From IMG/VR virus record IMGVR_UViG_3300036770_003604, positions 1 to 24,402 of that record: 24,402 bases of DNA. The stretch is one strand, 5' to 3'. The stretch comes from a virus. How positions within the stretch are numbered: the stretch's first letter is position 1; the number at the start of each line of letters is the position of its first letter. Of the stretch, positions 1-20,153 are shown piece after piece. The position numbers and the translations under genes were made by a program. Below the pieces are notes generated by a model, which was given only the letters and a program-made list of their open reading frames with translations, was not told the DNA's origin and made no database searches.

Positions 1-1720
1 CTTGGAGACCTTGGAGACCTTGAGTTCCTTGAACGCCTTGAGACCCCTGAGAACCTTGAAGTCCTTGAGTGCCTTGGAGACCTTGATTTCCTTGTGTTCC
101 TTGGAGACCTTGTGAACCCTGAGAACCTTGAAGTCCTTGAGTACCTTGGAGACCTTGCGAACCTTGCAGACCCTGAGCCCCTTGTCTCCCTTGTGTTCCT
201 TGAATACCTTGAGAGCCTTGAAGTCCTTGAGTTCCTTGGATACCTTGAGAACCTTGAGAACCTTGCAGACCTTGGGAACCTTGGATACCTTGAGAACCTT
301 GAGTTCCTTGAATACCTTGAGAACCTTGAGAACCTTGCAGACCTTGAGATCCTTGAATACCTTGAGAACCTTGTAGACCCTGAGAACCTTGCAGACCCTG
401 AGTTCCTTGTGTTCCTTGGAGACCTTGAGAACCCTGAGAACCTTGTAGACCCTGAGAACCTTGTAGACCCTGAGAACCTTGTAGACCCTGAAGACCTTGA
501 GAACCTTGTAGACCCTGAGTTCCTTGCAGACCCTGAGAACCTTGTATACCCTGAGTTCCTTGTGTTCCCTGTAATCCCTGAGAACCTTGTAGACCCTGAG
601 TTCCTTGCAGACCCTGTGAACCTTGAAGACCTTGAGTTCCTTGAGATCCCTGCAATCCTTGAGAACCTTGAGATCCCTGCAATCCTTGAGAACCTTGAAT
701 TCCTTGAGTTCCTTGTGTTCCCTGTAATCCCTGAGAACCTTGAAGACCCTGAGAACCTTGGATTCCTTGTGAACCTTGAATTCCTTGAGATCCTTGAGTA
801 CCTTGAATTCCCTGTGAACCTTGTGAACCTTGAATACCTTGAGAACCTTGAATTCCTTGTATTCCCTGAGACCCTTGAAGACCTTGAGAACCTTGTAGAC
901 CTTGAGAACCTTGAGAACCTTGTAAACCTTGACTACCTTGGACTCCCTGGTTACTAAGACCTTGTAAACCCTGGAGACCCTGTAGACCTTGTAGACCTTG
1001 TAGACCTTGATTTCCTTGTACGCCTTGATTACTTAATCCCTGTAGACCTTGAAGACCCTGTAGACCTTGTAGACCTTGTAGACCTTGATTTCCTTGTACG
1101 CCTTGGTTACTTAAACCTTGAAGTCCCTGGAGACCTTGTAATCCTTGAGAACCCTGAACACCTTGAGAACCCTGAACACCTTGGTTACTTAAACCTTGAA
1201 GACCCTGAAGACCTTGAACGCCTTGGTCTCCTTGAACACCTTGAGAACCCTGAACACCTTGGTTACTTAAACCTTGAAGACCCTGAAGACCTTGAACGCC
1301 TTGGTCTCCTTGAACACCTTGAGAACCCTGAACACCCTGATTGCTAAGTCCCTGAAGACCTTGGAGACCTTGAGAACCTTGAGCACCCTGAAGACCTTGA
1401 TTACCTTGAACCCCCTGATTACTTAAACCTTGGAGACCCTGAAGACCTTGATTACCTTGAGGTCCTTGAGAACCTTGAATACCTTGTAAACCTTGATTAC
1501 CTTGAGTTCCTTGAAGTCCCTGAACACCTTGAGGTCCCTGTGAACCCTGAATCCCTTGGAGACCTTGTAATCCTTGTGTTCCTTGCTCACCCTGAAGACC
1601 TTGATTTCCTTGAACACCTTGGGTTCCTTGCTCACCCTGAAGACCTTGAGTACCCTGAAGTCCTTGATTACCCTGAAGACCCTGAAGACCCTGTAGACCT
1701 TGAGTACCTTGAATACCTTG
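1..1720 (-). repeat. Coding minisatellite: 9-bp G-x-Q collagen triplet array
   Basis: Tandem 9-bp units encode Gly-X-Gln on the minus strand; on the plus strand each reads roughly ccttgnnna. The array runs from about 1720 to beyond position 1. It is imperfect at the third codon position and at the X codon, so copies are diverged rather than freshly expanded. The same unit recurs in the fibre gene at 5998-6900. Confidence 0.95.
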
Positions 1721-1966
1721 AGCATAAACATCTCTGGAAGGAACCCAAAATCTCCTTCCAGTATATCCTTCAGCAGCAATTAAAACATAATGATCTACTG
1801 GAACAGTTTGTCCTGGAGTAAAAGGATTAGTTCCTATAGAAGAAACGCCAACTAGCGGATCGCCTAAATCTGGTTCTGCTTGTTCAAGCCCAAGAAATTG
1901 ATACCTATCAGAGGTAATACCAGATTGGTCAAATCTTCTAACTCTTCCAGAACTATACTTTGACAT
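1..1966 (-). CDS. Collagen-like G-x-Q repeat structural protein (partial, C-terminus off window)
   Basis: This is the last visible gene of the minus-strand virion operon. It starts at ATG 1966-1964, 4 nt after the stop of the 115-aa gene, and stays open to position 1, so at least 655 residues are present and the C-terminus is outside the window. Residues 1-82 are an ordinary non-repetitive head (starting [14 protein letters not shown], with a [19 protein letters not shown] stretch) that may attach the protein to the virion. From about residue 83 to the window edge it is almost pure G-x-Q triplets (x = L, V, T, N, S, I, D, E, A) with very few prolines. Between 951 and about 1425 the triplets are broken by a GLSNQ interruption every 26 residues. 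Inferred role: a fibre or capsid/tail decoration forming a collagen-like trimer. The collagen-like assignment is certain; the virion location is inferred from the operon. Plus-strand open frames here are shadows of the repeat. Confidence 0.88.
951..1425 (-). repeat. 78-bp higher-order repeat marked by LSNQ interruptions
   Basis: The interruption motif (plus-strand TTACTTAA or TTGCTAAG type, encoding LSNQ on the minus strand) begins at 951, 1029, 1107, 1185, 1263, 1341 and 1419. All six intervals are exactly 78 bp, or 26 codons. Each interruption drops one Gly, so the collagen register is reset once per unit. Left of 951 the visible array appears uninterrupted. Confidence 0.9.
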
Positions 1967-2319: not shown

Positions 2320-5300
2320 TTATCTACTTAGTGCAATAATTAATGGTGTTACTGTATTTAACAAACTTTGACTAAACGCTCTTCCTGTAATTGTTCCTGT
2401 AACTTGGTTAATTGTTACATCATCACCAATCTTAAAATTACCACCTTGGTCTGTGCTTGTATAAACAATAATTCCACCATTTCTTTGCACAACTTCGTTT
2501 TCTTGAATTACTACACCACCCAAAGCTGGTTTTGCACTATTAATATTATTTCCAGAACCTACCCACTCAAAAGAGTGTGAAGATGTAATTTGGAGACTTA
2601 CTCTAGTAAAGTAAACTGTTGTTCCTACACTAACTGTATTATTTAGATTTGATAATAAAGTGATTGTAGAAATACCAGCAGAAGGTAAAGTAGCACTCTG
2701 AACGGAATAATAGATTGGATATAGAGTTGTAGTTGCGGCAGCACCAACTCCTCCTCCACCACCACTAAATGTTATTGTTGGATTTGTTTTATATTGAGTT
2801 CCTGTACTAATAATATCGACAGAAACAACTCTCCCACCTTCAATATTTGCACTTGCTTCTGCACGAATTCCATTTGGTCCTTCTGGGTCACTTAAGGTTA
2901 CATCTGGTGGAGTAGTATAACCACTTCCACCATCAGTCACTTCAATAGACTGGACAAAGTAATAAAGGTCTCCAAAATAAAGTGCCTGACCATCATAAGG
3001 ACGATAAGAACCAATACCAGAAACTACAATTACATCTTGTTCTAGTTCTGCAATTTGATGTGCTTTTCCTGTATAATGGTAAATTGATTTTGTAGTTTGG
3101 TCTCCAACACCATCAGAAACTAGTCCAAGTCTTCCGAATGAAGAGTTGGAGTTTGTAATATCACACTGACCACCAGAACCAGTAAAGATTGCAATATCAT
3201 CACAAATCGTAAAGATTGATACCAACTGAGAATATGCACCATTAGTAATAGAAACTCCAATACCACCCTGATTGTATTGAGTGTAACTGTCAACGCTCAT
3301 AGTACCAGTCACACCAATATCAACTTGGTCTCCAGGCTCTGCATCAAAACCATCTACTTTCATTCCAATACTGTCAGGAACGAAATTAGTGCAGTTTCTT
3401 ATATAAGGTCCTTGTGTAATTGGTCCTACTCCCTTTGAATATGGAGGAATAACTTTTCCACCAGAAACATAAGTATGAGGAATTGTAGAAACTCCAGTAT
3501 TCACAACGAACGTATTTCCAAAACTTGGAACATCTAAAACTCTAAACTTAAATCCACCAGACTTTCCTGTAGGATATATTGTAGTTGTTCCCGCACCACT
3601 AGTGCAGGAGAATTCTAAGTCTCTAAGACCTACATTTTGCCCCAACTTAACATAAGCTCCTGGTGCAACAATCGTAGTAATACCAGTAACATTATCATAA
3701 GTTGCGTCTGTAACATTTATAGAACGGTCAACAATAAATCCACCCCCAACATAAGTATGAGGAATTGTAGAAATTCCAGTATTAATTTCAAATGCCCCAT
3801 TTTCAAATACTTTATCTACAAAGAACTCATATCCATATCTTCCTGAGGGAAATTTTTGAGTAGATGTTGTCAATCCAGAAGAACATTCAAATACCAAATC
3901 ATAAAGTTCAATCAAATCTCCAGGTTTGACTGATAATCCTGGAGCAGATAATATGGTCTTTCCAGTTTCATTCTCATAAGTTGCTGACTGTACATTTACA
4001 ATTGTCGTAAATCCTATTCCACTATTACCTGGATAAGTTGTAGTAATTCCTGCAGTTGAACCTAACCCAACAATCGTGGTTACAACTCCAACTGAAGACC
4101 TCATAGCAGAAACAACGTCGGTGCAAGAATTTAAGGAATTATTAAATCCAGTTTCATAATCAACCTGCATGGATAGGTCTTTGACCTGTAAAAATTCATT
4201 TTGGAAGTTTTGATACTTCTGAATTGTTCCGCCCGAAACATAAGTGTGTGGAAGCGTTGATTGACCTACGACAACCTCAAAGGTATTTGAGTTGACAACT
4301 CTTTTTACTGGAAAAACATATCCAAGACTTCCTGTTGGGTATGTTAGAATTGTTGGTCCTGATGGACAGGAGAACTGGAGACCTTGAATTTTTACTGGGT
4401 CATCTAATAGTAATCCGTGATTGGATGCAGTAACAGTAGTAATTCCAGTTAGATTATCATAAGTAGCACCCGATACGTTTATAACAGGTCCTGCTGGATA
4501 TCCACCCCAAGTACAATTATTTACAACGGCACGGGCAATATTGAAAGAATAATCCAAAGTAGCAATAGTTTGTTCTACTTCTCCAGGATTTTTAAGAATT
4601 TGTGGTATTAAATTCCAGTCATCATCAAAGTAGAACTTAGCAGCACGAACTGATTTAGAGTTACCACCTCTTGTCATATCAAAACATATTGCTCTCCAAA
4701 TATCCTTTACATCGTCAGCACAATCGTTACTTTCAAGAGTTACTCCAAACTCAATTGGTGGTGCCTGTTCCGTTCCTATTCCAATAATATCTGTGATAAT
4801 TTCTGCAAGAGATTCAATTCTTATGATTGTATCTCCACATCCACCAGAAACTAAAATTGGAGAATAACTACTAGTATCTTGTGATAAATTTGTATATTGT
4901 GTTGGATAAGACTCATTATTAATTACAAAGGTTACAATTCCAACTGCATGATTGATTGCATCTACGGTTGCATCACGAATACTGTATCCATTAATATCAG
5001 TTCCCGTAATGTGTAAAAGACCGCCATTACTATCATAATATGTTAATCCTGCACCAATAGATTTCTTATTGCTTCCTGCCTTTAAGTCGTAAGAGATGGA
5101 ACGGAGAATATCTTTAATATCATCTTCACAATCTCCTGGAACAGTAGGAACAACAAATGGTGGAGACTTATAATCTGTAGAAGTAAGAAATCCTATAGTT
5201 TCTGATGCAATATAGTCAATATTTAAATCAATAAGTCTTGCGGCATCTTGTTCTCTGTGACTTCCAGCAAATCCACTAAATCCACTTGTTAAGAAACCAA

Positions 5301-7596
5301 CTGCTTCTTTTGCAATATAATCGAGATTGATGCGAACCATTCTTGCCCCATCAAAAAATCTATCAGTCGATACTCCTAATAGTGGTTGTAGTGCAACAAT
5401 TGCTGCACCGTTAGTCATATTAGGACCAATAAAACTCATATCAGTAATATGACATCCATTATTAACATGGAATAAGTCACGGTCTAAGAATTTTGGAGTT
5501 ACGACACAGTTACGAAGTTCTGTTCCCTCAACAGATACTGTCTTTGCCAAAACAATCGGGTTCTCTTCAACATAAACTCCTGGAAATACTTTGATGGTGT
5601 CACCAAAGACTGCAACAGTAGATGCAGATTTAATCGTTCTCTTTGGATAATTTTCTGCTAGTCCAGTATTATTATCATCTCCAGTTTGTGAAACGTAGAT
5701 TGTTTTTCCTACTGGTCGGTATGAAGTAATTTCAACAATTCCCTTACCATCAGGTTGTGTTGATTCAATATCAATTCCAATACCTGCAGTAATTTGAGTA
5801 ACAATTCCAGTTAAATTTACACCATTTCCTAAGAAAGTATCTGCAAGTAGATTGCCAGAAACTTGTAATCTTTCTGTTGGATTTGTTGTTCCAATACCAA
5901 CAAACTCTGTTTCGGGAATATAAACAAAATTAGTAGCACCAGCAGCAACATTTTCATTATTGAAGATGACTTGCGTATCTTCACCAGCTACTGGTCCCTC
6001 TGTACCTTGAAGACCCTGCAGACCTTGATTTCCCTGAAGACCTTGAAGACCCTGCAGACCTTGATTTCCCTGAAGACCTTGAGTTCCCTGGTCCCCCTGT
6101 AAGCCCTGTAAACCCTGTGAACCTTGTGCTCCCTGAACACCTTGTTCACCTTGGAGACCTTGAGTACCTTGTAATCCTTGAAGACCTTGTGCTCCCTGAA
6201 CGCCCTGGTCTCCCTGAATACCCTGTAGACCTTGAGTACCTTGGTCTCCTTGTAGACCTTGTAGACCTTGTGCTCCCTGAACACCTTGCTCACCTTGGAG
6301 ACCTTGAGTACCTTGGTCTCCTTGCAGACCCTGTAAACCTTGTGCTCCCTGAACACCTTGCTCACCTTGAAGACCTTGATTGCCCTGAACTCCCTGATTA
6401 CTTAAACCTTGAAGACCCTGAAGACCTTGAACACCTTGGTCTCCCTGAAGACCTTGCAATCCCTGAAGACCCTGAAGACCTTGTAATCCCTGAAGACCCT
6501 GAAGACCCTGAGTTCCTTGAAAATCACTTAAAGGTCCTTGAGCACCTTGAAGACCCTGAAGACCTTGCAATCCTTGAAGACCCTGAAGACCCTGAGTTCC
6601 TTGAAAGTCACTTAACGGTCCTTGAGCACCTTGAAGACCTTGATTGCCTTGAGTTCCTTGAAGACCCTGAAGACCTTGAACACCTTGGTCTCCCTGAAGA
6701 CCCTGAAGACCCTGTAAACCTTGAGTGCCTTGGTCTCCCTGAAGACCTTGCAATCCTTGAAGACCCTGAATACCTTGTCTTCCCTGATTTCCTTGTAGAC
6801 CTTGTAGACCTTGAAGACCCTGAGAACCCTGAGAACCTTGAAGTCCTTGATTACCTTGAAGTCCTTGATTGCCTTGAGTTCCCTGAAGACCTTGAGAACC
6901 CCTAGACGATGCTTGGCATATTGTAAATTCACATTCACCAACTACGGTATTAACTGCATCTGATTGGTCTGCTTGGTCCATCCAAGCATATATTTCAAGA
7001 TAGTCGCCTTGATTTAATTTTATTTGTGTGGTTACTTTTATATTTTTATTGTCGCCTAATGCAGCACCTTCACTATAAGAGGTTGACCTAGTTTCTGTAA
7101 CCTCATTACCATTAACAAATATAGAAGCTATTGGAGAGATTCTCCCAGTTCCGGTATTTATAATTCCTATATTTGCATCTATTAAGTAAATACCCTCTAT
7201 TACTACTTGAACTCTTTGAGGATTTACTGTATTTGAATGAACGTATGATTCTAGTTGAGTATAAACAGTATTATCAAAACGAATAGGAACTCTATTCGCA
7301 TAAGTTACATTAATATTTTCTGTTAACGTAACCTTGTTAAAATTGCAAGCATTAACATCTTTGTTTAAACCAATATTAAACCAAGTCCATCCACCTTGAC
7401 CATCAGATGTAAGAACATCAAATATATTTCCAGAGCTATTATCTTTGTCGTAAATTCCACCTGATACTTGAATATCATTAAAAGTGGATTTTTCTGAAGA
7501 TGTTACATTACCTACTAAGTCACCTTCTGCAGTATCAAATAATCTTACCTTTTTATAAAACCAAGCCTCTTGACCTACAATAAACTTATCTGACAT
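2320..7596 (-). CDS. Giant fibre-like structural protein: C1q-like head, collagen stalk, beta-helix and repeat domains
   Basis: This 1758-aa protein has a clear modular order. Residues about 95-228 look like a C1q/TNF-type jelly roll (VVIEGIYLIDANIGI, FVNGNEV, IKLNQGDYLEIYAWMD). Residues 233-533 are about 100 G-x-Q collagen triplets with two GPLSDF and one LSNQ break. Around 563-580 is a GIGTTNPTERLQVSGN segment common in tail-fibre proteins. Residues about 628-735 resemble a pectate-lyase-like beta-helix (IYVSQTGDDNNTG, PKRTIKSA, IKVFPGVYVEENPI). After that come duplicated LDYIA-GFLTS segments, duplicated DDxKDI segments, three tandem ~90-aa repeats (about 1036-1382) and a GSGYTTPP repeat near 1553-1630. 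The start is supported by AGGAG just before ATG, with GAGG further upstream. It lies 11 nt after the spike gene. Likely role: a trimeric tail or baseplate fibre, possibly for glycan binding; family knowledge supports the fibre call, while the target is unknown. Confidence 0.88.
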   Translation of the reverse strand: MSDKFIVGQEAWFYKKVRLFDTAEGDLVGNVTSSEKSTFNDIQVSGGIYDKDNSSGNIFDVLTSDGQGGWTWFNIGLNKDVNACNFNKVTLTENINVTYANRVPIRFDNTVYTQLESYVHSNTVNPQRVQVVIEGIYLIDANIGIINTGTGRISPIASIFVNGNEVTETRSTSYSEGAALGDNKNIKVTTQIKLNQGDYLEIYAWMDQADQSDAVNTVVGECEFTICQASSRGSQGLQGTQGNQGLQGNQGLQGSQGSQGLQGLQGLQGNQGRQGIQGLQGLQGLQGDQGTQGLQGLQGLQGDQGVQGLQGLQGTQGNQGLQGAQGPLSDFQGTQGLQGLQGLQGLQGLQGAQGPLSDFQGTQGLQGLQGLQGLQGLQGLQGLQGDQGVQGLQGLQGLSNQGVQGNQGLQGEQGVQGAQGLQGLQGDQGTQGLQGEQGVQGAQGLQGLQGDQGTQGLQGIQGDQGVQGAQGLQGLQGTQGLQGEQGVQGAQGSQGLQGLQGDQGTQGLQGNQGLQGLQGLQGNQGLQGLQGTEGPVAGEDTQVIFNNENVAAGATNFVYIPETEFVGIGTTNPTERLQVSGNLLADTFLGNGVNLTGIVTQITAGIGIDIESTQPDGKGIVEITSYRPVGKTIYVSQTGDDNNTGLAENYPKRTIKSASTVAVFGDTIKVFPGVYVEENPIVLAKTVSVEGTELRNCVVTPKFLDRDLFHVNNGCHITDMSFIGPNMTNGAAIVALQPLLGVSTDRFFDGARMVRINLDYIAKEAVGFLTSGFSGFAGSHREQDAARLIDLNIDYIASETIGFLTSTDYKSPPFVVPTVPGDCEDDIKDILRSISYDLKAGSNKKSIGAGLTYYDSNGGLLHITGTDINGYSIRDATVDAINHAVGIVTFVINNESYPTQYTNLSQDTSSYSPILVSGGCGDTIIRIESLAEIITDIIGIGTEQAPPIEFGVTLESNDCADDVKDIWRAICFDMTRGGNSKSVRAAKFYFDDDWNLIPQILKNPGEVEQTIATLDYSFNIARAVVNNCTWGGYPAGPVINVSGATYDNLTGITTVTASNHGLLLDDPVKIQGLQFSCPSGPTILTYPTGSLGYVFPVKRVVNSNTFEVVVGQSTLPHTYVSGGTIQKYQNFQNEFLQVKDLSMQVDYETGFNNSLNSCTDVVSAMRSSVGVVTTIVGLGSTAGITTTYPGNSGIGFTTIVNVQSATYENETGKTILSAPGLSVKPGDLIELYDLVFECSSGLTTSTQKFPSGRYGYEFFVDKVFENGAFEINTGISTIPHTYVGGGFIVDRSINVTDATYDNVTGITTIVAPGAYVKLGQNVGLRDLEFSCTSGAGTTTIYPTGKSGGFKFRVLDVPSFGNTFVVNTGVSTIPHTYVSGGKVIPPYSKGVGPITQGPYIRNCTNFVPDSIGMKVDGFDAEPGDQVDIGVTGTMSVDSYTQYNQGGIGVSITNGAYSQLVSIFTICDDIAIFTGSGGQCDITNSNSSFGRLGLVSDGVGDQTTKSIYHYTGKAHQIAELEQDVIVVSGIGSYRPYDGQALYFGDLYYFVQSIEVTDGGSGYTTPPDVTLSDPEGPNGIRAEASANIEGGRVVSVDIISTGTQYKTNPTITFSGGGGGVGAAATTTLYPIYYSVQSATLPSAGISTITLLSNLNNTVSVGTTVYFTRVSLQITSSHSFEWVGSGNNINSAKPALGGVVIQENEVVQRNGGIIVYTSTDQGGNFKIGDDVTINQVTGTITGRAFSQSLLNTVTPLIIALSR
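3450..4488 (-). repeat. Three diverged ~90-aa coding repeats in the fibre protein
   Basis: Minus-strand copies lie at about 4488-4222, 4004-3733 and 3720-3450. Each begins with a (V/I)-x-V-x-x-A-T-Y-(D/E)-N-x-T-G block and contains F-x-C-(P/S/T)-S-G and (Y/F)-P-(T/S)-G-(S/R/K) blocks. Each ends with P-H-T-Y-V-(S/G)-G-G. Copies 2 and 3 are adjacent; copies 1 and 2 are separated by about 70 residues. Confidence 0.85.
5998..6900 (-). repeat. G-x-Q collagen triplet array inside the fibre gene
   Basis: About 100 tandem 9-bp units encode Gly-X-Gln at residues 233-533 of the 1758-aa protein. Two GPLSDF interruptions (plus-strand TCACTTA at 6524 and 6608, 84 bp apart) and one LSNQ interruption near 6400 break the array. 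It is nearly the same unit as the downstream collagen-like gene at 1-1720, so the operon carries two homologous arrays about 4.3 kb apart. Confidence 0.92.
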
Positions 7597-11774: not shown

Positions 11775-13825
11775 TAGACGTAAGATAAATCCAAGAGAAG
11801 TTTTTGTTTCATAAAGTTATTTAACAAGGTTCCCATAGAGACTGAAGATTTTGTAACCGAAGGCATCATAGGACCTTGAGACATTTGTGGTGCTGGAGAC
11901 GATTGTTCTGGTATAAAGGCAAATATCTCTGCTGGTTTGTTTACTGGAGTTAGTGATTGAAAAAGTGTTTGTTTAGATTGCTGTGATGGGGTTTGAGATA
12001 TTTGTGCTGGTGGTGGGGTTTGTGCTTGTGGTTGTGGAGATACTTGTGCTGGTGATGGGGATTGTTGTTGAGGTTGTTGTGTTACTTGTCCTGGAGAAAT
12101 TTTACTTGCAGAAGAACCAGCTGCACCGTGAGAAACAGTAATTCCTCTACTACCTATAATTTCAGCTTCTCTACCATATCCACCTCTAGAATAAACTTCA
12201 CCAACTGCAAATGGGAATTTAGTAGCAGAACCTGGCTGGGAAGGAAAAGTACGTTTTACATTTGGATTAATTTCTTGAATATCAACTCCAGCACTACTTC
12301 TTGCATCATGAGCTCTTTGTTCTGCTGCAATTTGGTTTCTAAGTGTTCCATCATTTTTAGATGCATATTGATTTAAATTTCCAAACCATACGGTAGAACC
12401 TCTTGCAAGCATTACTTTTACTGCTTGGAAAGATACCTCTCTAATATTTGCTAGTTCTTCTTGTGTTGGATTTGCATTCTTAGAATCAATATGAAAGTGT
12501 GTAGCATATTGTGCTTCACCTTTACTTCCAGAACCACCTTGAATAAAACCACCAGCACCTGTTTGAGGTATCAACTTCATAGTACCTGCTGATACTGCTC
12601 TGGATGGTGAGGGTGAGGATGGTTGTGATTGTTGTGGTTTTGAACCTTCTTTTTGCAAATATTCGTAAGCAATTTTAGATGCTTTCCAACGGTCTCCAAG
12701 TTCTCCCCAAACAATATATCTATAAGATGCTTTTTTTAGTTCTTCATCAGTTGAATTTGGATTCATAAAAACCTTTAAAACACCATCAGACCCACTATTG
12801 TAATATGGCAAAGACATCTCATGTTTAATCCAATCAATTTGCTCTGAAGCACTTGCGGTTTCTAAAGGTTTTCCTAAAAATTTCTCAGCAGCAACAATTC
12901 TAGACCTATTCCAACTAATTAGTCCTTTATTAATTCCAGCTCCATCATTTAATATCCAGGGTTTTCTTTTTGCTTGCCACACAGATTCTGTCTGTATATT
13001 TCCTGCCAAATATGCAGCTGCCTTAGGTGGAAACCCTTTTTGTGTCAATAATTTAGCACCATCTTTTAAATTTGTAGGATTTGGACCAACTGAACTAGAA
13101 GTAGAACCAGAAGAAGTATCACCATAAGCACCCATGTCTTCAGGAGTACTTCCAAATGGAGGGATTTCTTGACCACTATAAGAACCTATTTGCGTACCAT
13201 CTTCAGTAGTTTGAGTTAAAGGTGTAGTAATTAATTTTACTCCTGCCTCTAGTTCACTTCCCATATCATTAATTGAATCGACAAGTTCATCAAATGAATT
13301 TCTTATTCTATTTGAATCATCAAATAAATCAAAGTTTTTTAAATTTTCAATTGCTCCAGTAATCAAACTATATGAGGATTGAAAAACTCTAATTGCTCCT
13401 GTTACAAAACTACCAATAATTCTTCCAGCTTCCTGAAGTCTAGCAATAAATTCCTTTGCCATTCCTTCCCAAGTTGGGAGATTTTTAATAACCCAACCAG
13501 CAGCAAGATATCCTAGAGTATTTACAATTCTGTCAATAAAACTTCCAGTACCATCAACAATACTAGGTTTTGAAGTTATATTTGGAGAAGAAGCAATTTG
13601 TTTTGCTTCCAATTCATCTTCTTGCTCTTGCCTTATAGTAGCATACTCTCTTTTTTTTCTTTCCGTAAGAATTTGTGAACTTATTTTTTCTCTATCCTCA
13701 GTTCTTTCCTTCAATAACTTTGAAAGATTGGTAAGAGAAGTTTGAGTATTAAGTAAAGTTTTTTGAGACTTCTTAATACTTTCATTAAAATTAGTTCTTT
13801 TTGGTAATAAGGTAGTTTGTGCCAT
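11774..13825 (-). CDS. Baseplate/tail protein with phage tail-lysozyme domain and His-rich second domain
   Basis: This is a 683-aa protein. Residues about 15-75 are charged and heptad-like (coiled coil). Residues about 95-160 hold a helical stretch with LAAGWVIKNLPTW. Residues about 248-393 resemble the phage tail-type lysozyme family: KLLTQKGFPPKAAAYLAGNI, then QTESVW with the probable catalytic Glu280, INKGLISWNRSR, and SYRYIVWGELGDRW. A Pro/Ser linker follows. A second domain at about 415-570 carries THFHID (His443, His445), AEQRAHD (His506) and VSHGAAGS (His566). The end is Pro/Gln-rich with AFIPE at 636-640. Inferred role: local peptidoglycan cleavage during injection, replacing the lysozyme missing from the gp5-like protein. 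It overlaps gp27 by 1 nt. The lysozyme call is fair to good; the second domain is unassigned. Confidence 0.78.
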   Translation of the reverse strand: MAQTTLLPKRTNFNESIKKSQKTLLNTQTSLTNLSKLLKERTEDREKISSQILTERKKREYATIRQEQEDELEAKQIASSPNITSKPSIVDGTGSFIDRIVNTLGYLAAGWVIKNLPTWEGMAKEFIARLQEAGRIIGSFVTGAIRVFQSSYSLITGAIENLKNFDLFDDSNRIRNSFDELVDSINDMGSELEAGVKLITTPLTQTTEDGTQIGSYSGQEIPPFGSTPEDMGAYGDTSSGSTSSSVGPNPTNLKDGAKLLTQKGFPPKAAAYLAGNIQTESVWQAKRKPWILNDGAGINKGLISWNRSRIVAAEKFLGKPLETASASEQIDWIKHEMSLPYYNSGSDGVLKVFMNPNSTDEELKKASYRYIVWGELGDRWKASKIAYEYLQKEGSKPQQSQPSSPSPSRAVSAGTMKLIPQTGAGGFIQGGSGSKGEAQYATHFHIDSKNANPTQEELANIREVSFQAVKVMLARGSTVWFGNLNQYASKNDGTLRNQIAAEQRAHDARSSAGVDIQEINPNVKRTFPSQPGSATKFPFAVGEVYSRGGYGREAEIIGSRGITVSHGAAGSSASKISPGQVTQQPQQQSPSPAQVSPQPQAQTPPPAQISQTPSQQSKQTLFQSLTPVNKPAEIFAFIPEQSSPAPQMSQGPMMPSVTKSSVSMGTLLNNFMKQKLLLDLSYV

Positions 13826-17382: not shown

Positions 17383-17817
17383 ATGGCATATAAGGGAAAA
17401 TTTCAACCCTCATACCCAAAAAAATATAAAGGCGACCCTACAAATATCGTCTATCGTTCTTTGTGGGAAAGAAAGTTTATGGTGTATTGTGATAAGAATG
17501 AAAATGTCTTGGAGTGGGGAAGTGAAGAGATAATGCTGCCATATCGTTCCCCAGTTGATGGAAAAATACACAGATACTTTCCTGACTTTTATATTAAAGT
17601 AAAAGAAAGTACAGGAGAAATAAAAAAGTATCTAATAGAAATAAAACCTAAAAAGCAAACAGTAAAACCAAAAGTTCCTAAGAGACAAACAAAAGGATAC
17701 CTTTATGAGGTTTATGAGTATGCCAAAAATCAATCTAAATGGGAAGCAGCAAAAGAATATTGTAAAGATAGAAATTGGATATTCAAAGTCCTTACCGAAG
17801 ATGACCTAGGAGTATGA
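17383..17817 (+). CDS. gp4: Head completion protein gp4 (PD-(D/E)XK-type fold)
   Basis: This 144-aa protein is read from ATG 17383. I chose this start because gp4 homologues begin MAYKGKF; the frame is open further upstream, but that would run into the promoter spacer and the divergent gene. The highly characteristic core includes GDPTNIVYRSLWERKFMVYC, NENVLEWGSEE, PYRSPVDGKIHRYFPDFYI and KKYLIEIKPKKQT. Glu29, Asp68, Glu86 and Lys88 form the arrangement of a PD-(D/E)XK nuclease. T4 gp4 (150 aa) acts in capsid completion before head-tail joining. It overlaps the next gene by 4 nt (ATGA) and heads the plus-strand unit that includes gp48 and gp53. High confidence in identity; enzymatic activity is inferred from the fold. 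Confidence 0.9.
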   Translation: MAYKGKFQPSYPKKYKGDPTNIVYRSLWERKFMVYCDKNENVLEWGSEEIMLPYRSPVDGKIHRYFPDFYIKVKESTGEIKKYLIEIKPKKQTVKPKVPKRQTKGYLYEVYEYAKNQSKWEAAKEYCKDRNWIFKVLTEDDLGV

Positions 17818-18161
17818 ATAGAATTAGACCTGTTCTCAAAAATATTACAGGAAAAGAAGACCCTGATGATTTAATGCAGGAGATATTAGGAGTATTGAAA
17901 ATAACCACACCAGTTCCTGATGTTGGTAAGTATTATACTTTTGTATATTCTCCAAAAACTGATAATTTACAGTATGATGAATATCCTTTAGTAGCAGTAA
18001 CTGATATTTTTCAGTGGGGATTTCGTGGTATAAATTTTCACTGGGGAGGACCAAGACAATATACTTGGGTAGAAATAGTTGGAAACTTACATCTTGTCTA
18101 TCCACAAGAATTTGGTGACTTGAGAACAATACCTTATGGAAAAATCAAACTTAAGAGATAA
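17814..18161 (+). CDS. Unknown 115-aa protein of the gp4-gp48 unit
   Basis: This 115-aa protein begins MNRIRPVLKNITGKEDPDDL. It has an N-terminal charged helix and then a compact aromatic core: GKYYTFVYSPKT, YDEYPLVAVTDI, FQWGFRGINFHWGGPRQYTW, and ends TIPYGKIKLKR. There is no signal peptide, membrane segment or recognisable catalytic motif. The Tyr-Phe-x-Tyr-x-Pro-Lys-Thr ... Tyr-Pro-Leu-Val ... Gly-x-Asn-Phe-His layout recalls conserved hypothetical proteins of T4-like and other tailed phages, but I cannot assign a function. Translational coupling to gp4 (ATGA) and cotranscription with gp48 and gp53 suggest a virion-assembly role in head completion, DNA-end handling or baseplate formation. 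Confidence 0.8.
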   Translation: MNRIRPVLKNITGKEDPDDLMQEILGVLKITTPVPDVGKYYTFVYSPKTDNLQYDEYPLVAVTDIFQWGFRGINFHWGGPRQYTWVEIVGNLHLVYPQEFGDLRTIPYGKIKLKR

Positions 18162-18164
18162 ATA
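18157..18164 (+). promoter_or_regulatory. Candidate late promoter (GATAAATA) before gp48
   Basis: GATAAATA overlaps the TAA stop of the 115-aa gene and lies 14 nt before the gp48 ATG. It fits the NATAAATA form of T4-like late promoters. The same octamer occurs on the minus strand at 24242-24249. The leader would be very short, which lowers confidence. Confidence 0.4.
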
Positions 18165-18178
18165 ACTAAAAAAAGTAA

Positions 18179-19051
18179 ATGACAGTACCTCCATTACTAA
18201 GGTATCCAATCAAAAAACTAGATTCTGATGATTTCATTAAGATTGATATTTACGAATATCAACCAGGAACTCTTCCTACTGAAGCTTCATTTAGCACTAC
18301 TCCAGGAGGAATTAGAGGAGCAATAAAACAAACTATTATATTGCCCATGACAGAATCTATTCCACAAAATACATTATCAACAGTTTGGGGAGAAGATAGA
18401 TTAGGTCCATTACAAGCTGGGGCATTTGCTGTTGCAACTGAAGCATTAGAATCTCCCGGTGCTGGTATTGCGGAATTTCAACAACAAATCCAGAAAGTAG
18501 GAGATGCTTTAAATACTAGTCTTGGTTCAAAAGTAGCATCTTCGGCACTGGCACAATCTATACTTAAAAGTATTGGTGTACAAAATGCGGGTTCCATTTT
18601 ATCTAGAACTGGTGGTATAGTCTTTAATGAAAATGTAGAACTTTTGTTTCAAGGAGTAACATTAAGAGGTCCATTTGGTTTTGTTTTTACTATGACACCT
18701 CGTTCACAAAAAGAATCTCAGACCATAAAAAATATTATTCTTTCACTTAAAAAGGCTATGACTCCCAACAGAGGAACAGTTGCTGGAGCAGGAGCAGGTC
18801 TTCTTTTAAAGGCACCAGATGTATTTAAAATATCATATAAAAGTGCAAATAAAGACCACCCATTTATGAATAGATTTAAAGTATGTGCTTTGAAAGATTT
18901 ATCAGTTGACTACACTCCCGATGGAGTCTATATGACATATAAAGACTCTACTCCAGTTAACATAACACTTTCATTAACATTTCAAGAACTTACTCCAATT
19001 TATCGTGAAGATTATGATAAGGATGAAGGACTAATCGGACTAGGATACTAA
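18179..19051 (+). CDS. gp48: Baseplate tail tube cap gp48
   Basis: This 290-aa protein begins MTVPPLLRYPIKKLDSDDFI. It shows the gp48 tail-cap family pattern: an N-terminal LRYP segment with IDIYEY, a polar/Ala-rich middle (about 80-150), FNENVELLFQGVTLRGPFGF with TMTPRSQKESQTIKNII, and a conserved end with APDVFKISYK, NRFKVCALKDLSVDYTPDGV, SLTFQELTPIYREDYD. T4 gp48 (364 aa) caps the central hub and initiates the tube with gp54. This protein is shorter than T4's. The TAA of gp48 is followed after one base by the gp53 ATG. The call is strong from the C-terminal motifs and neighbours. Confidence 0.87.
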   Translation: MTVPPLLRYPIKKLDSDDFIKIDIYEYQPGTLPTEASFSTTPGGIRGAIKQTIILPMTESIPQNTLSTVWGEDRLGPLQAGAFAVATEALESPGAGIAEFQQQIQKVGDALNTSLGSKVASSALAQSILKSIGVQNAGSILSRTGGIVFNENVELLFQGVTLRGPFGFVFTMTPRSQKESQTIKNIILSLKKAMTPNRGTVAGAGAGLLLKAPDVFKISYKSANKDHPFMNRFKVCALKDLSVDYTPDGVYMTYKDSTPVNITLSLTFQELTPIYREDYDKDEGLIGLGY

Positions 19052-19052
19052 A

Positions 19053-20153
19053 ATGACTTATTTCAGAGAGTTACCAGACTTAGAATATCAATCATTTTTA
19101 TCTGATAGGCAGAGGTCTAATGATTATGTGCGTGTTAAAAACTTATTCAGAAGAGCAAAACTTCGTGATGATTTAAATAATGTTCTTACAGTTTTTGATA
19201 AGTATCAAATACCTGATGGATATAGACCAGATAACGTTGCTGAAGAATTATATGGAAGTGCAGAATATGATTGGGTAGTTTTAATTAGTGCTGGAATTGT
19301 AAACGTAAGAGATGAGTGGCCAATTTCAGATGGTGATTTATATTCATATGTTGAATCTAAGTATGGTAATGAACTATATGGAACTCATCATTACATTACA
19401 AAAGAAGTAAAAGATTCTGGTGGAAGAATTATTATGAATGAAGGTAGATTAGTCAATAATATTATACAATTACCTTATCCATCGTATTTTCCCGAAATTG
19501 GTCCTGATGTAATTGATATTGGAATAAATGAAACATTAGACACAGTATTTGGGAACCTATATCTTCACGATATCAGCACTATTGTAAAAACAGAAGATTA
19601 CGGAACATTTACAATTGACGAAGAACAAAATATTTGGACATACGCTATAAATTTAGAGTCTCTTGAAGGACTAGAATTCTTCGATGATGAAGCAATGGTA
19701 ACAGATACACTACAATATATTGCAGTTGATGGGTATCTAAAAACATTCAAAATAGATACAAAGGTATTTAAAAATGAAGAGGATATAGATGTTGAATTTT
19801 TAGTTGATGATAGTAGTATTAATTCAACTCAAGTATCATATGTAACTTATTACGATAGTATAACAACATCATATACAACTTCTTATAATATAACGATACC
19901 CGTTTCAAACTACGAATATGAAGTTGAATTGAATAATCAAAAAAGAAGTATTTTTGTTCTAAAACCTTTCTACTTACAGCAATTTATTAATGATACTAGA
20001 GATATAATGACTTATAAGAGGTCTTCACAACTTGTTGAAGACCGTAATGGGGATGATATTATCAGAACTGAAAATACAAGAACAACTATGCCTTATGGTT
20101 CAACATTCCCAAGAGAATCTCCAAGTGAGGTAATTAGAATAGAACTAGCATAA
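19053..20153 (+). CDS. gp53: Baseplate wedge protein gp53 (enlarged)
   Basis: This 366-aa protein begins MTYFRELPDLEYQSFLSDRQ. The N-terminal domain is characteristic of gp53: NDYVRVKNLFRRAKLRDDL, FDKYQIPDGYRPDNVAEELY and YDWVVLISAGIVNVRDEWPI. The C-terminus (about 290-330) carries the expected NYEYEVELNNQKRSIFVLKP with YLQQFINDTRDIM. Between them (about 125-285) lies extra acidic, Thr/Tyr/Asp-rich sequence, making it nearly twice the T4 gp53 length (196 aa). It is the last gene of the plus unit; its stop codon is part of the A-tract of the terminator. gp53 joins wedge and hub in the T4 baseplate. High confidence in family; the role of the insertion is unknown. Confidence 0.87.
   Translation: MTYFRELPDLEYQSFLSDRQRSNDYVRVKNLFRRAKLRDDLNNVLTVFDKYQIPDGYRPDNVAEELYGSAEYDWVVLISAGIVNVRDEWPISDGDLYSYVESKYGNELYGTHHYITKEVKDSGGRIIMNEGRLVNNIIQLPYPSYFPEIGPDVIDIGINETLDTVFGNLYLHDISTIVKTEDYGTFTIDEEQNIWTYAINLESLEGLEFFDDEAMVTDTLQYIAVDGYLKTFKIDTKVFKNEEDIDVEFLVDDSSINSTQVSYVTYYDSITTSYTTSYNITIPVSNYEYEVELNNQKRSIFVLKPFYLQQFINDTRDIMTYKRSSQLVEDRNGDDIIRTENTRTTMPYGSTFPRESPSEVIRIELA

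Follow-up and report, generated by a model that had tools for sequence, protein, structure and literature searches.

Seven evenly spaced breaks in the predicted collagen-type tail-fibre stalk of a T4-like cyanophage

To our knowledge, the spacing that is allowed between several interruptions within one collagen is an open matter, such interruptions having been studied mostly singly, in peptides. This question is raised by a stretch of viral DNA of 24,402 nucleotides (positions 1 to 24,402 of the IMG/VR record IMGVR_UViG_3300036770_003604, hereafter 'the window'), in which a collagen-like gene carries seven LSNQ interruptions at exactly equal intervals. An earlier note, made from the sequence alone, had offered two readings, namely recent segmental amplification of a 78-bp unit or selection for evenly spaced hinges in a fibre stalk. 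Is the even spacing a by-product of duplication, a requirement of the fibre, or some combination of the two? The relevant features are as follows, in window coordinates.

2..1966, minus strand: collagen-like tail-fibre gene (655 aa within the window, open at the window's left end), identified by its open reading frame and translation, the Pfam Collagen match (E 1.1e-89) and PHROG tail-fibre families
1718..1966, minus strand: non-collagen head, residues 1-83, conserved in relatives (80 relatives, 37 of them aligned)
1430..1717, minus strand: 32 unbroken GxQ triplets, from head to array
884..1429, minus strand: array of seven 78-bp units, each GLSNQ plus 7 GxQ triplets
1415..1426, minus strand: LSNQ break 1
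1337..1348, minus strand: LSNQ break 2
1259..1270, minus strand: LSNQ break 3
1181..1192, minus strand: LSNQ break 4
1103..1114, minus strand: LSNQ break 5
1025..1036, minus strand: LSNQ break 6
947..958, minus strand: LSNQ break 7
2..883, minus strand: GxQ triplets without a break, belonging to a run of 265 in a longer contig
2320..7596, minus strand: second fibre gene to contain collagen (1758 aa); it carries one LSNQ and a pair of PLSDFQ breaks at a distance of 28 aa

Judging by its sequence, the product of the first gene is a predicted collagen-type stalk of a T4-like cyanophage tail fibre. The stalk is a (Gly-X-Gln)n repeat that scores 294.6 bits against the Pfam Collagen profile (PF01391; cut-off 27.2), and the gene matches PHROG tail-fibre families. 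It is surrounded by T4-like baseplate, tail and replication genes in the order found in Prochlorococcus phage P-SSM2, where PSSM2_023 occupies the matching position; the head is 49% identical to that of PSSM2_023 over 92%, and a gp32-like protein shares 81% identity, across 81% of its length, with those of Prochlorococcus phages P-SSM5 and P-SSM2. Both the position of the gene and the homology of its head place it among the known tail fibres of T4-like cyanophages. In a longer contig (G001) that is identical to the window over the 1966 bp and 6 kb upstream, the fibre protein reaches 2882 aa and has a Laminin_G_3 domain in a 900-aa stretch past the stalk. The alignment of 37 head sequences contains 16 invariant columns, and the structure predicted for the head from these 37 sequences reached a mean pLDDT of only 60. 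A sequence search of the PDB yielded, up to an E of 1, 31 matches whose composition is collagen-like; the top-ranking one is a Gly-Ala-Pro/Ser-Gln repeat, and LSNQ is absent from the alignment displayed.

The P-SSM2 gene orthologous to window positions 2-1966 (17454-19247 of locus L256) has the conserved head followed by a Pro-rich GPT/GPA stalk, so that the stalk chemistry appears to have been swapped between the two fibre genes and the head kept. Genes annotated as 2OG-Fe(II) oxygenases or PiuC were observed near collagen-like tail-fibre genes of cyanophages (S-CAM9, locus L259, 6497-7725 and 23252-24417; P-SSM2, locus L256, 26178-26771, piuC; locus L342, 21280-21870). Within the window, the second fibre gene has higher-order repeats of its own at 6004-6895, with a period of 72 over 6107-6502 and a period of 84, with PLSDFQ, over 6407-6687, and a 42-bp tandem repeat at 11995-12094 (2.4 copies, 82% matches) lies in a gene with a phage-lysozyme domain.

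The geometry described in the earlier note is confirmed. The seven GLSNQ breaks begin at residues 180, 206, 232, 258, 284, 310 and 336 of the protein, in steps of 26 residues or 78 bp (the starts reported previously each lie four bases into the motif), on an underlying 9-bp GxQ unit, and Tandem Repeats Finder independently detected a period of 78 over 948-1722. In each case, four non-Gly residues separate the triplet runs (G-LSNQ-G), that is, one Gly is missing and the interruption is of the G4G type, seven times over. The unit consists of 7 clean triplets plus GLSNQ; its 26 residues cannot be divided into whole triplets, so the Gly register moves with every copy, and the array accordingly differs from in-phase collagen super-repeats of the Lcl type, in which a unit comprises whole triplets. 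The array is preceded by 32 unbroken triplets and followed by 265; the reported absence of interruptions to the left of the breaks holds as far as the window's left end and extends across these 265 triplets of the identical longer contig. Two points of the description need correction: the gene runs on the minus strand, and Pro is nearly rather than completely absent from the stalk, with 2 among the 573 stalk residues in the window.

The array copies are well supported as tandem duplicates of some age that appear from their sequences to be maintained by purifying selection. Identity reaches 0.825 at a lag of 78 and 0.764 at twice this lag (156), and does not exceed 0.616 at any other lag examined between 54 and 147. 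Adjacent copies are identical at 0.828 of positions, compared with 0.716±0.017 after shuffling of the 49 triplets among blocks, and none of 5000 shuffles gave a value as high. Pairwise nucleotide identity between units is 68-92%, so that units differ by 8-32%; units 2 and 3, like units 5 and 6, are 92% identical and differ at synonymous positions only, and the six comparisons of adjacent units together contain 51 synonymous and 13 non-synonymous codon differences. In consisting of tandem copies generated by duplication, the array resembles a coding minisatellite (VNTR). The amplification proposed earlier is therefore borne out, but not as a very recent event, since the copies have diverged, mostly at synonymous sites. 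The copy number is seven in all three available contigs, with no polymorphism among these three. A one-unit difference was found in the 72-bp array of another phage, in one of five contigs: L036 has one extra unit compared with L035, L038, L039 and L040 at 99.92-100% identity otherwise, although an assembly error in L036 is possible, and L036 differs from L038 by two more indels, of 18 and 27 bp. The 72-bp unit of L036 encodes 24 aa of the GELGYQ type, and the difference lies in the stalk, ~0.7 kb after the start of the head at 6001.

The units that are duplicated in these collagen genes are short. Among 84 lineages, the commonest lengths of recent tandem units that include a break are 69 bp (in 14 lineages) and 78 bp (in 12), while 60 and 87 bp each occur in 4; recent break-free units occur in 30 of the 84 lineages at 36 bp, 21 at 72 bp, 10 at 81 bp and 5 at 90 bp. 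Bacterial collagens (75 loci) yield break-free units of 36 bp (17), 63 bp (6), 72 bp (10), 81 bp (7) and 99 bp (2). For neighbouring LSNQs at a spacing of 23 or 26 aa, the flanking X residues agree in register at 0.44-0.51, compared with 0.15-0.30 when shifted by one or two triplets; between lineages, the match is 0.18-0.21, with the window and loci L237-L255, which had been fetched by fixed spacing, included. Within unbroken runs, the autocorrelation of X residues shows a small excess at a lag of 8 triplets (0.053 weighted and 0.034 unweighted in 43 lineages, the same loci and the window included), which is not decisive.

The break itself is not peculiar to this phage. A search of IMG/VR with the head as the query found 84 loci, of which 80 were kept; in these head-fetched loci, LSNQ is the dominant G4G motif, accounting for 102 of the 158 clean G4G sites and found in 17 of the 20 lineages that have any, and an LSN-like core, as in xLSNFQ, is found in 193 of the 201 clean G6G sites. 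In the full set, with L237-L255 and the window included, LSNQ fills 564 of the 695 sites and appears in 78 of 80 lineages, a share inflated by the fact that the loci were largely fetched by LSNQ; it is encoded in 49 ways that include both serine codon families. LSNQ is thus kept as a motif at the protein level. The spacing of the breaks is irregular in the stalks of relatives, among those listed. In the window's phage itself, a fibre gene next to this one carries two GLSNQ breaks and a third of another kind, each 26 aa apart, in another unit sequence, a trio that fits repeated use of one spacing. In six-frame translations of regions from eight named cyanophage records (P-SSM2, S-SKS1, DSL-LC03, S-CAM9, S-CRM01, DSL-LC02, S-SCSM2R and S-SRM01), three LSNQ strings were found, none in a collagen context, and a survey of the literature, covering titles and the openings of abstracts and mostly outside subscription papers, yielded no LSNQ or regularly spaced breaks in phage collagens.

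Spacing was compared across lineages defined as clusters that share 40-mers outside the collagen (81 from 239 loci, later 85 from 285), a crude control for descent; counting after nucleotide clustering failed, as all GxQ sequences look alike. Scans of viral sequences for clean LSNQ-(GxQ)n-LSNQ stretches with AGY serine codons yielded 10, 25, 44 and 7 stretches at spacings of 20, 23, 26 and 29 aa, respectively, with three of the 44 coming from two contigs of the window's own phage and with the clean condition slightly penalising longer runs. Among the 81 clusters, for loci not fetched by spacing (L009-L207), the corresponding lineage counts were 9, 19, 17 and 7; the count for 23 and 26 aa, spacings that correspond exactly to six and seven triplets, was 37 compared with 21.6±3.0 expected from random placement within blocks (2000 permutations), the bins having been picked after inspection of the data. 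A scan with TCN serine codons, meant as a held-out set, added 7 lineages with two LSNQ pairs, at 11 and 44 aa, and none at 23 or 26 aa.

A more general test takes into account the direction of the register shift, which is -1 for G1G and G4G and +1 for G3G and G6G, and counts the clean triplets between neighbouring breaks. For the sense-pair counts (full and head-only), the paired tests, the periodogram, and the duplication-unit and within-lineage flank counts, L237-L255 and the window were omitted; blocks with fewer than 3 breaks were also omitted from the sense-pair counts, full and head-only, and from the periodogram. Same-sense pairs lie 6-8 triplets apart at a lineage-weighted frequency of 0.34 compared with 0.15 expected (69 lineages, 878 pairs), and this holds for G4-G4 (0.36), G1-G1 (0.29), G6-G6 (0.37) and mixed G4/G1 (0.31) pairs; opposite-sense pairs do so at 0.17, compared with 0.15 expected (38 lineages, 251 pairs). 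In head-only loci, the frequencies are 0.29 for same-sense (23 lineages, 286 pairs) and 0.06 for opposite-sense pairs (19 lineages, 122 pairs), each against 0.15. Mixed G4/G1 pairs are not obtainable by simple duplication of one break; in the 20 lineages with both kinds, their frequency is 0.41 compared with 0.09 for opposite-sense G4/G6 pairs (p 0.0023; unpaired p 0.043), and a comparison of mixed same-sense with all opposite-sense pairs gave p 0.21 unpaired and p 0.020 paired. In mixed pairs, blocks of at most five triplets are depleted regardless of sign (0.31 for G4/G1 and G4/G6 alike), which weighs against a sign-dependent rule, as do the unpaired p of 0.21 and the two pairs of the TCN scan outside the preferred range. 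Among same-sense phage pairs, spacings of 10-13 triplets are scarce and those of 14-15 and 22 slightly raised; lost breaks within duplicated arrays could produce such rises, and the spacing periodogram is broad. Opposite-sense pairs exceed expectation most at 9 and 14 triplets (weights of 12.5 and 6.7 against 5.7 and 3.2), positions that differ from the same-sense maxima, and the pairs involved are few.

As an unrelated control, bacterial GPT collagens have 11 of 28 same-sense pairs at 6-8 triplets (0.39 compared with 0.13±0.06, p 0.001), in 17 domains with at least 2 breaks from 15 of the 80 loci, with L266 and L310 contributing 16 of the 28 pairs and with four opposite-sense pairs only; a further bacterial fetch gave no new independent case, the only useful one being the L266 genome, already counted. 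In this exploratory analysis, whose spacing bins were picked after inspection of the data, same-sense breaks of the phages occur 6-8 triplets apart about twice as often as under random placement and opposite-sense breaks do not, a statistical rule, and the 7-triplet blocks of the array sit at the mode of the same-sense distribution. This preference across phages suggests that the spacing is probably constrained and is not only a by-product of duplication.

The scenario that we favour, and regard as likely, is that a 26-residue module was duplicated in tandem and the outcome filtered by a rule on the helix block between same-sense breaks. The module, GLSNQ followed by seven GxQ triplets, would have reached seven copies by tandem duplication in a slippage-prone gene of 9-bp repeats, each LSNQ being the standard G4G break of this phage family that moves the Gly register by one residue, and purifying selection would then have kept the duplicated copies. 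Two forces may set the interval: duplication units in these genes would be short, rarely beyond ~80-90 bp, and same-sense shifts would be tolerated or favoured when the block between them comprises 6-8 triplets. The duplication, the maintenance of the copies, the family-wide motif and the spacing bias enter this scenario directly from the comparisons above. A block of 6-8 triplets would be close both to the shortest self-trimerising length and to one superhelical turn, two quantities that are inseparable here. One superhelical turn of a chain takes 7 triplets in the 7/2 model and 10 in the 10/3 model of collagen. The smallest self-trimerising length is quoted as at least six GXY repeats (PMC13188886). 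The dependence on sign, together with the fall beyond 9 triplets, points to some role for helical phase. With the collagen rise of ~0.29 nm per residue, a unit would be ~7.5 nm long and the whole array ~53 nm, within a stalk of about 0.3 micrometre. We infer that the fibre is a homotrimer, along with its orientation on the virion, the softness of the joints and a functional role for the breaks; in such a fibre, a soft root of seven loosened joints close to the head would give way to a stiff arm formed by the long unbroken rod.

A purely mutational account, in which slippage or unequal recombination in any collagen gene duplicates units of ~27-80 bp and leaves the even 78-bp spacing as a neutral by-product of no structural significance, borrows strength from the break-free phage units, which also bump at 72 bp and drop past 81 bp, from the similar unit spectrum of unrelated bacterial collagens and from the small excess identity of unbroken runs at the 8-triplet lag. 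Nevertheless, we consider it unlikely, given that break-containing units are more concentrated at 69-78 bp than break-free ones, that the peak at 6-8 triplets is found in same-sense pairs of mixed type but is missing from opposite-sense pairs, and that adjacent units differ mainly by synonymous changes. More improbable still is selection for the exact 26-residue periodicity as such, as a required mechanical device of the fibre. The interval is exact over seven copies with a constant LSNQ and mostly silent divergence, and the neighbouring fibre gene has its three breaks 26 aa apart in a different unit sequence; yet exactness already follows from the duplication of one unit, the next 265 triplets have no break, and the orthologous position of P-SSM2 is taken by a Pro-rich stalk without LSNQ. 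The relatives listed are irregular, which, by the earlier note's own reasoning, tells against a strictly regular device. Most of the stalk is unbroken as well, and strictly even hinges as a conserved device are only partly supported; with the same-sense preference for 6-8 triplets across phages, the structural idea persists in a weakened version, as a statistical rule for how this family of breaks is spaced.

Collapse or expansion during metagenome assembly, which the earlier note had raised as a source of identical copies and which might have created the number or the evenness of the units, is very improbable. The LSNQ arrays considered here all come from uncultured viral contigs, and the regions of the eight named cyanophage records contain no LSNQ in a collagen context; however, the same spacing recurs in many lineages, the units differ from one another by 8-32%, and the three contigs show zero differences over 1966 bp plus 6 kb, with shared reads among them possible. 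It is the divergence of the copies together with the agreement of the contigs that makes an artefact unlikely. A bolder reading, which we hold to be doubtful, treats the LSN-core break (G-LSNQ-G or G-xLSNFQ-G) as a signed register-shift module, with shifts of like sign separated by about one superhelical turn (6-8 triplets, and more weakly near 14-15 and 22) and hence on the same helical face, so that the seven-copy array would act as a programmed bend or a twist-compensated joint.

Hundreds of breaks, belonging to few types, are available in the stalks of cyanophage fibres, and the comparison of same- with opposite-sense shifts serves as an internal control. If the spacing rule of the favoured scenario is true, it would allow the shortest independent helix block, or the helical phase, of an almost proline-free collagen to be read from sequence, and would offer a rule for understanding very long phage fibres. 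Phage stalks are rich in breaks by contrast with a bacterial collagen ORF of 4453 aa (L434; G010:C3:15500-28237), which has 1061 triplets and 0 phase breaks.

Among known systems, the collagen-like tail fibres of phages (PF01391; PHROG 6320 and 5073; PSSM2_023 of P-SSM2) likewise combine a head and a collagen stalk in a tail-fibre gene, but the stalk of P-SSM2 is Pro-rich, whereas that of the window phage is an almost Pro-free (Gly-X-Gln)n repeat with a repeated LSNQ break. Tandem-repeat collagens with units above the triplet level are also represented by the repeats of Bacillus BclA. The EPcl proteins of E. coli prophages are said to have stalks with a single conserved interruption, G-X-P-G-G-P-X-G (PMC3368898). 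Natural interruptions of the G4G and G1G types, in non-fibrillar collagens, C1q and mannan-binding lectin, likewise shift the Gly register, and a GQG break loosened peptides and bent them by 11 to 85 degrees (PMC9898670); compared with these, the phage breaks have an LSN core, are many per chain and, in the array described here, lie at exact intervals. Legionella Lcl also has units above the triplet level, of 15 residues, and varies in unit number through repeat instability (PMC6460258); the Lcl unit, however, is a whole number of triplets (5), whereas the 78-bp phage unit is not, so that the register shifts with each copy.
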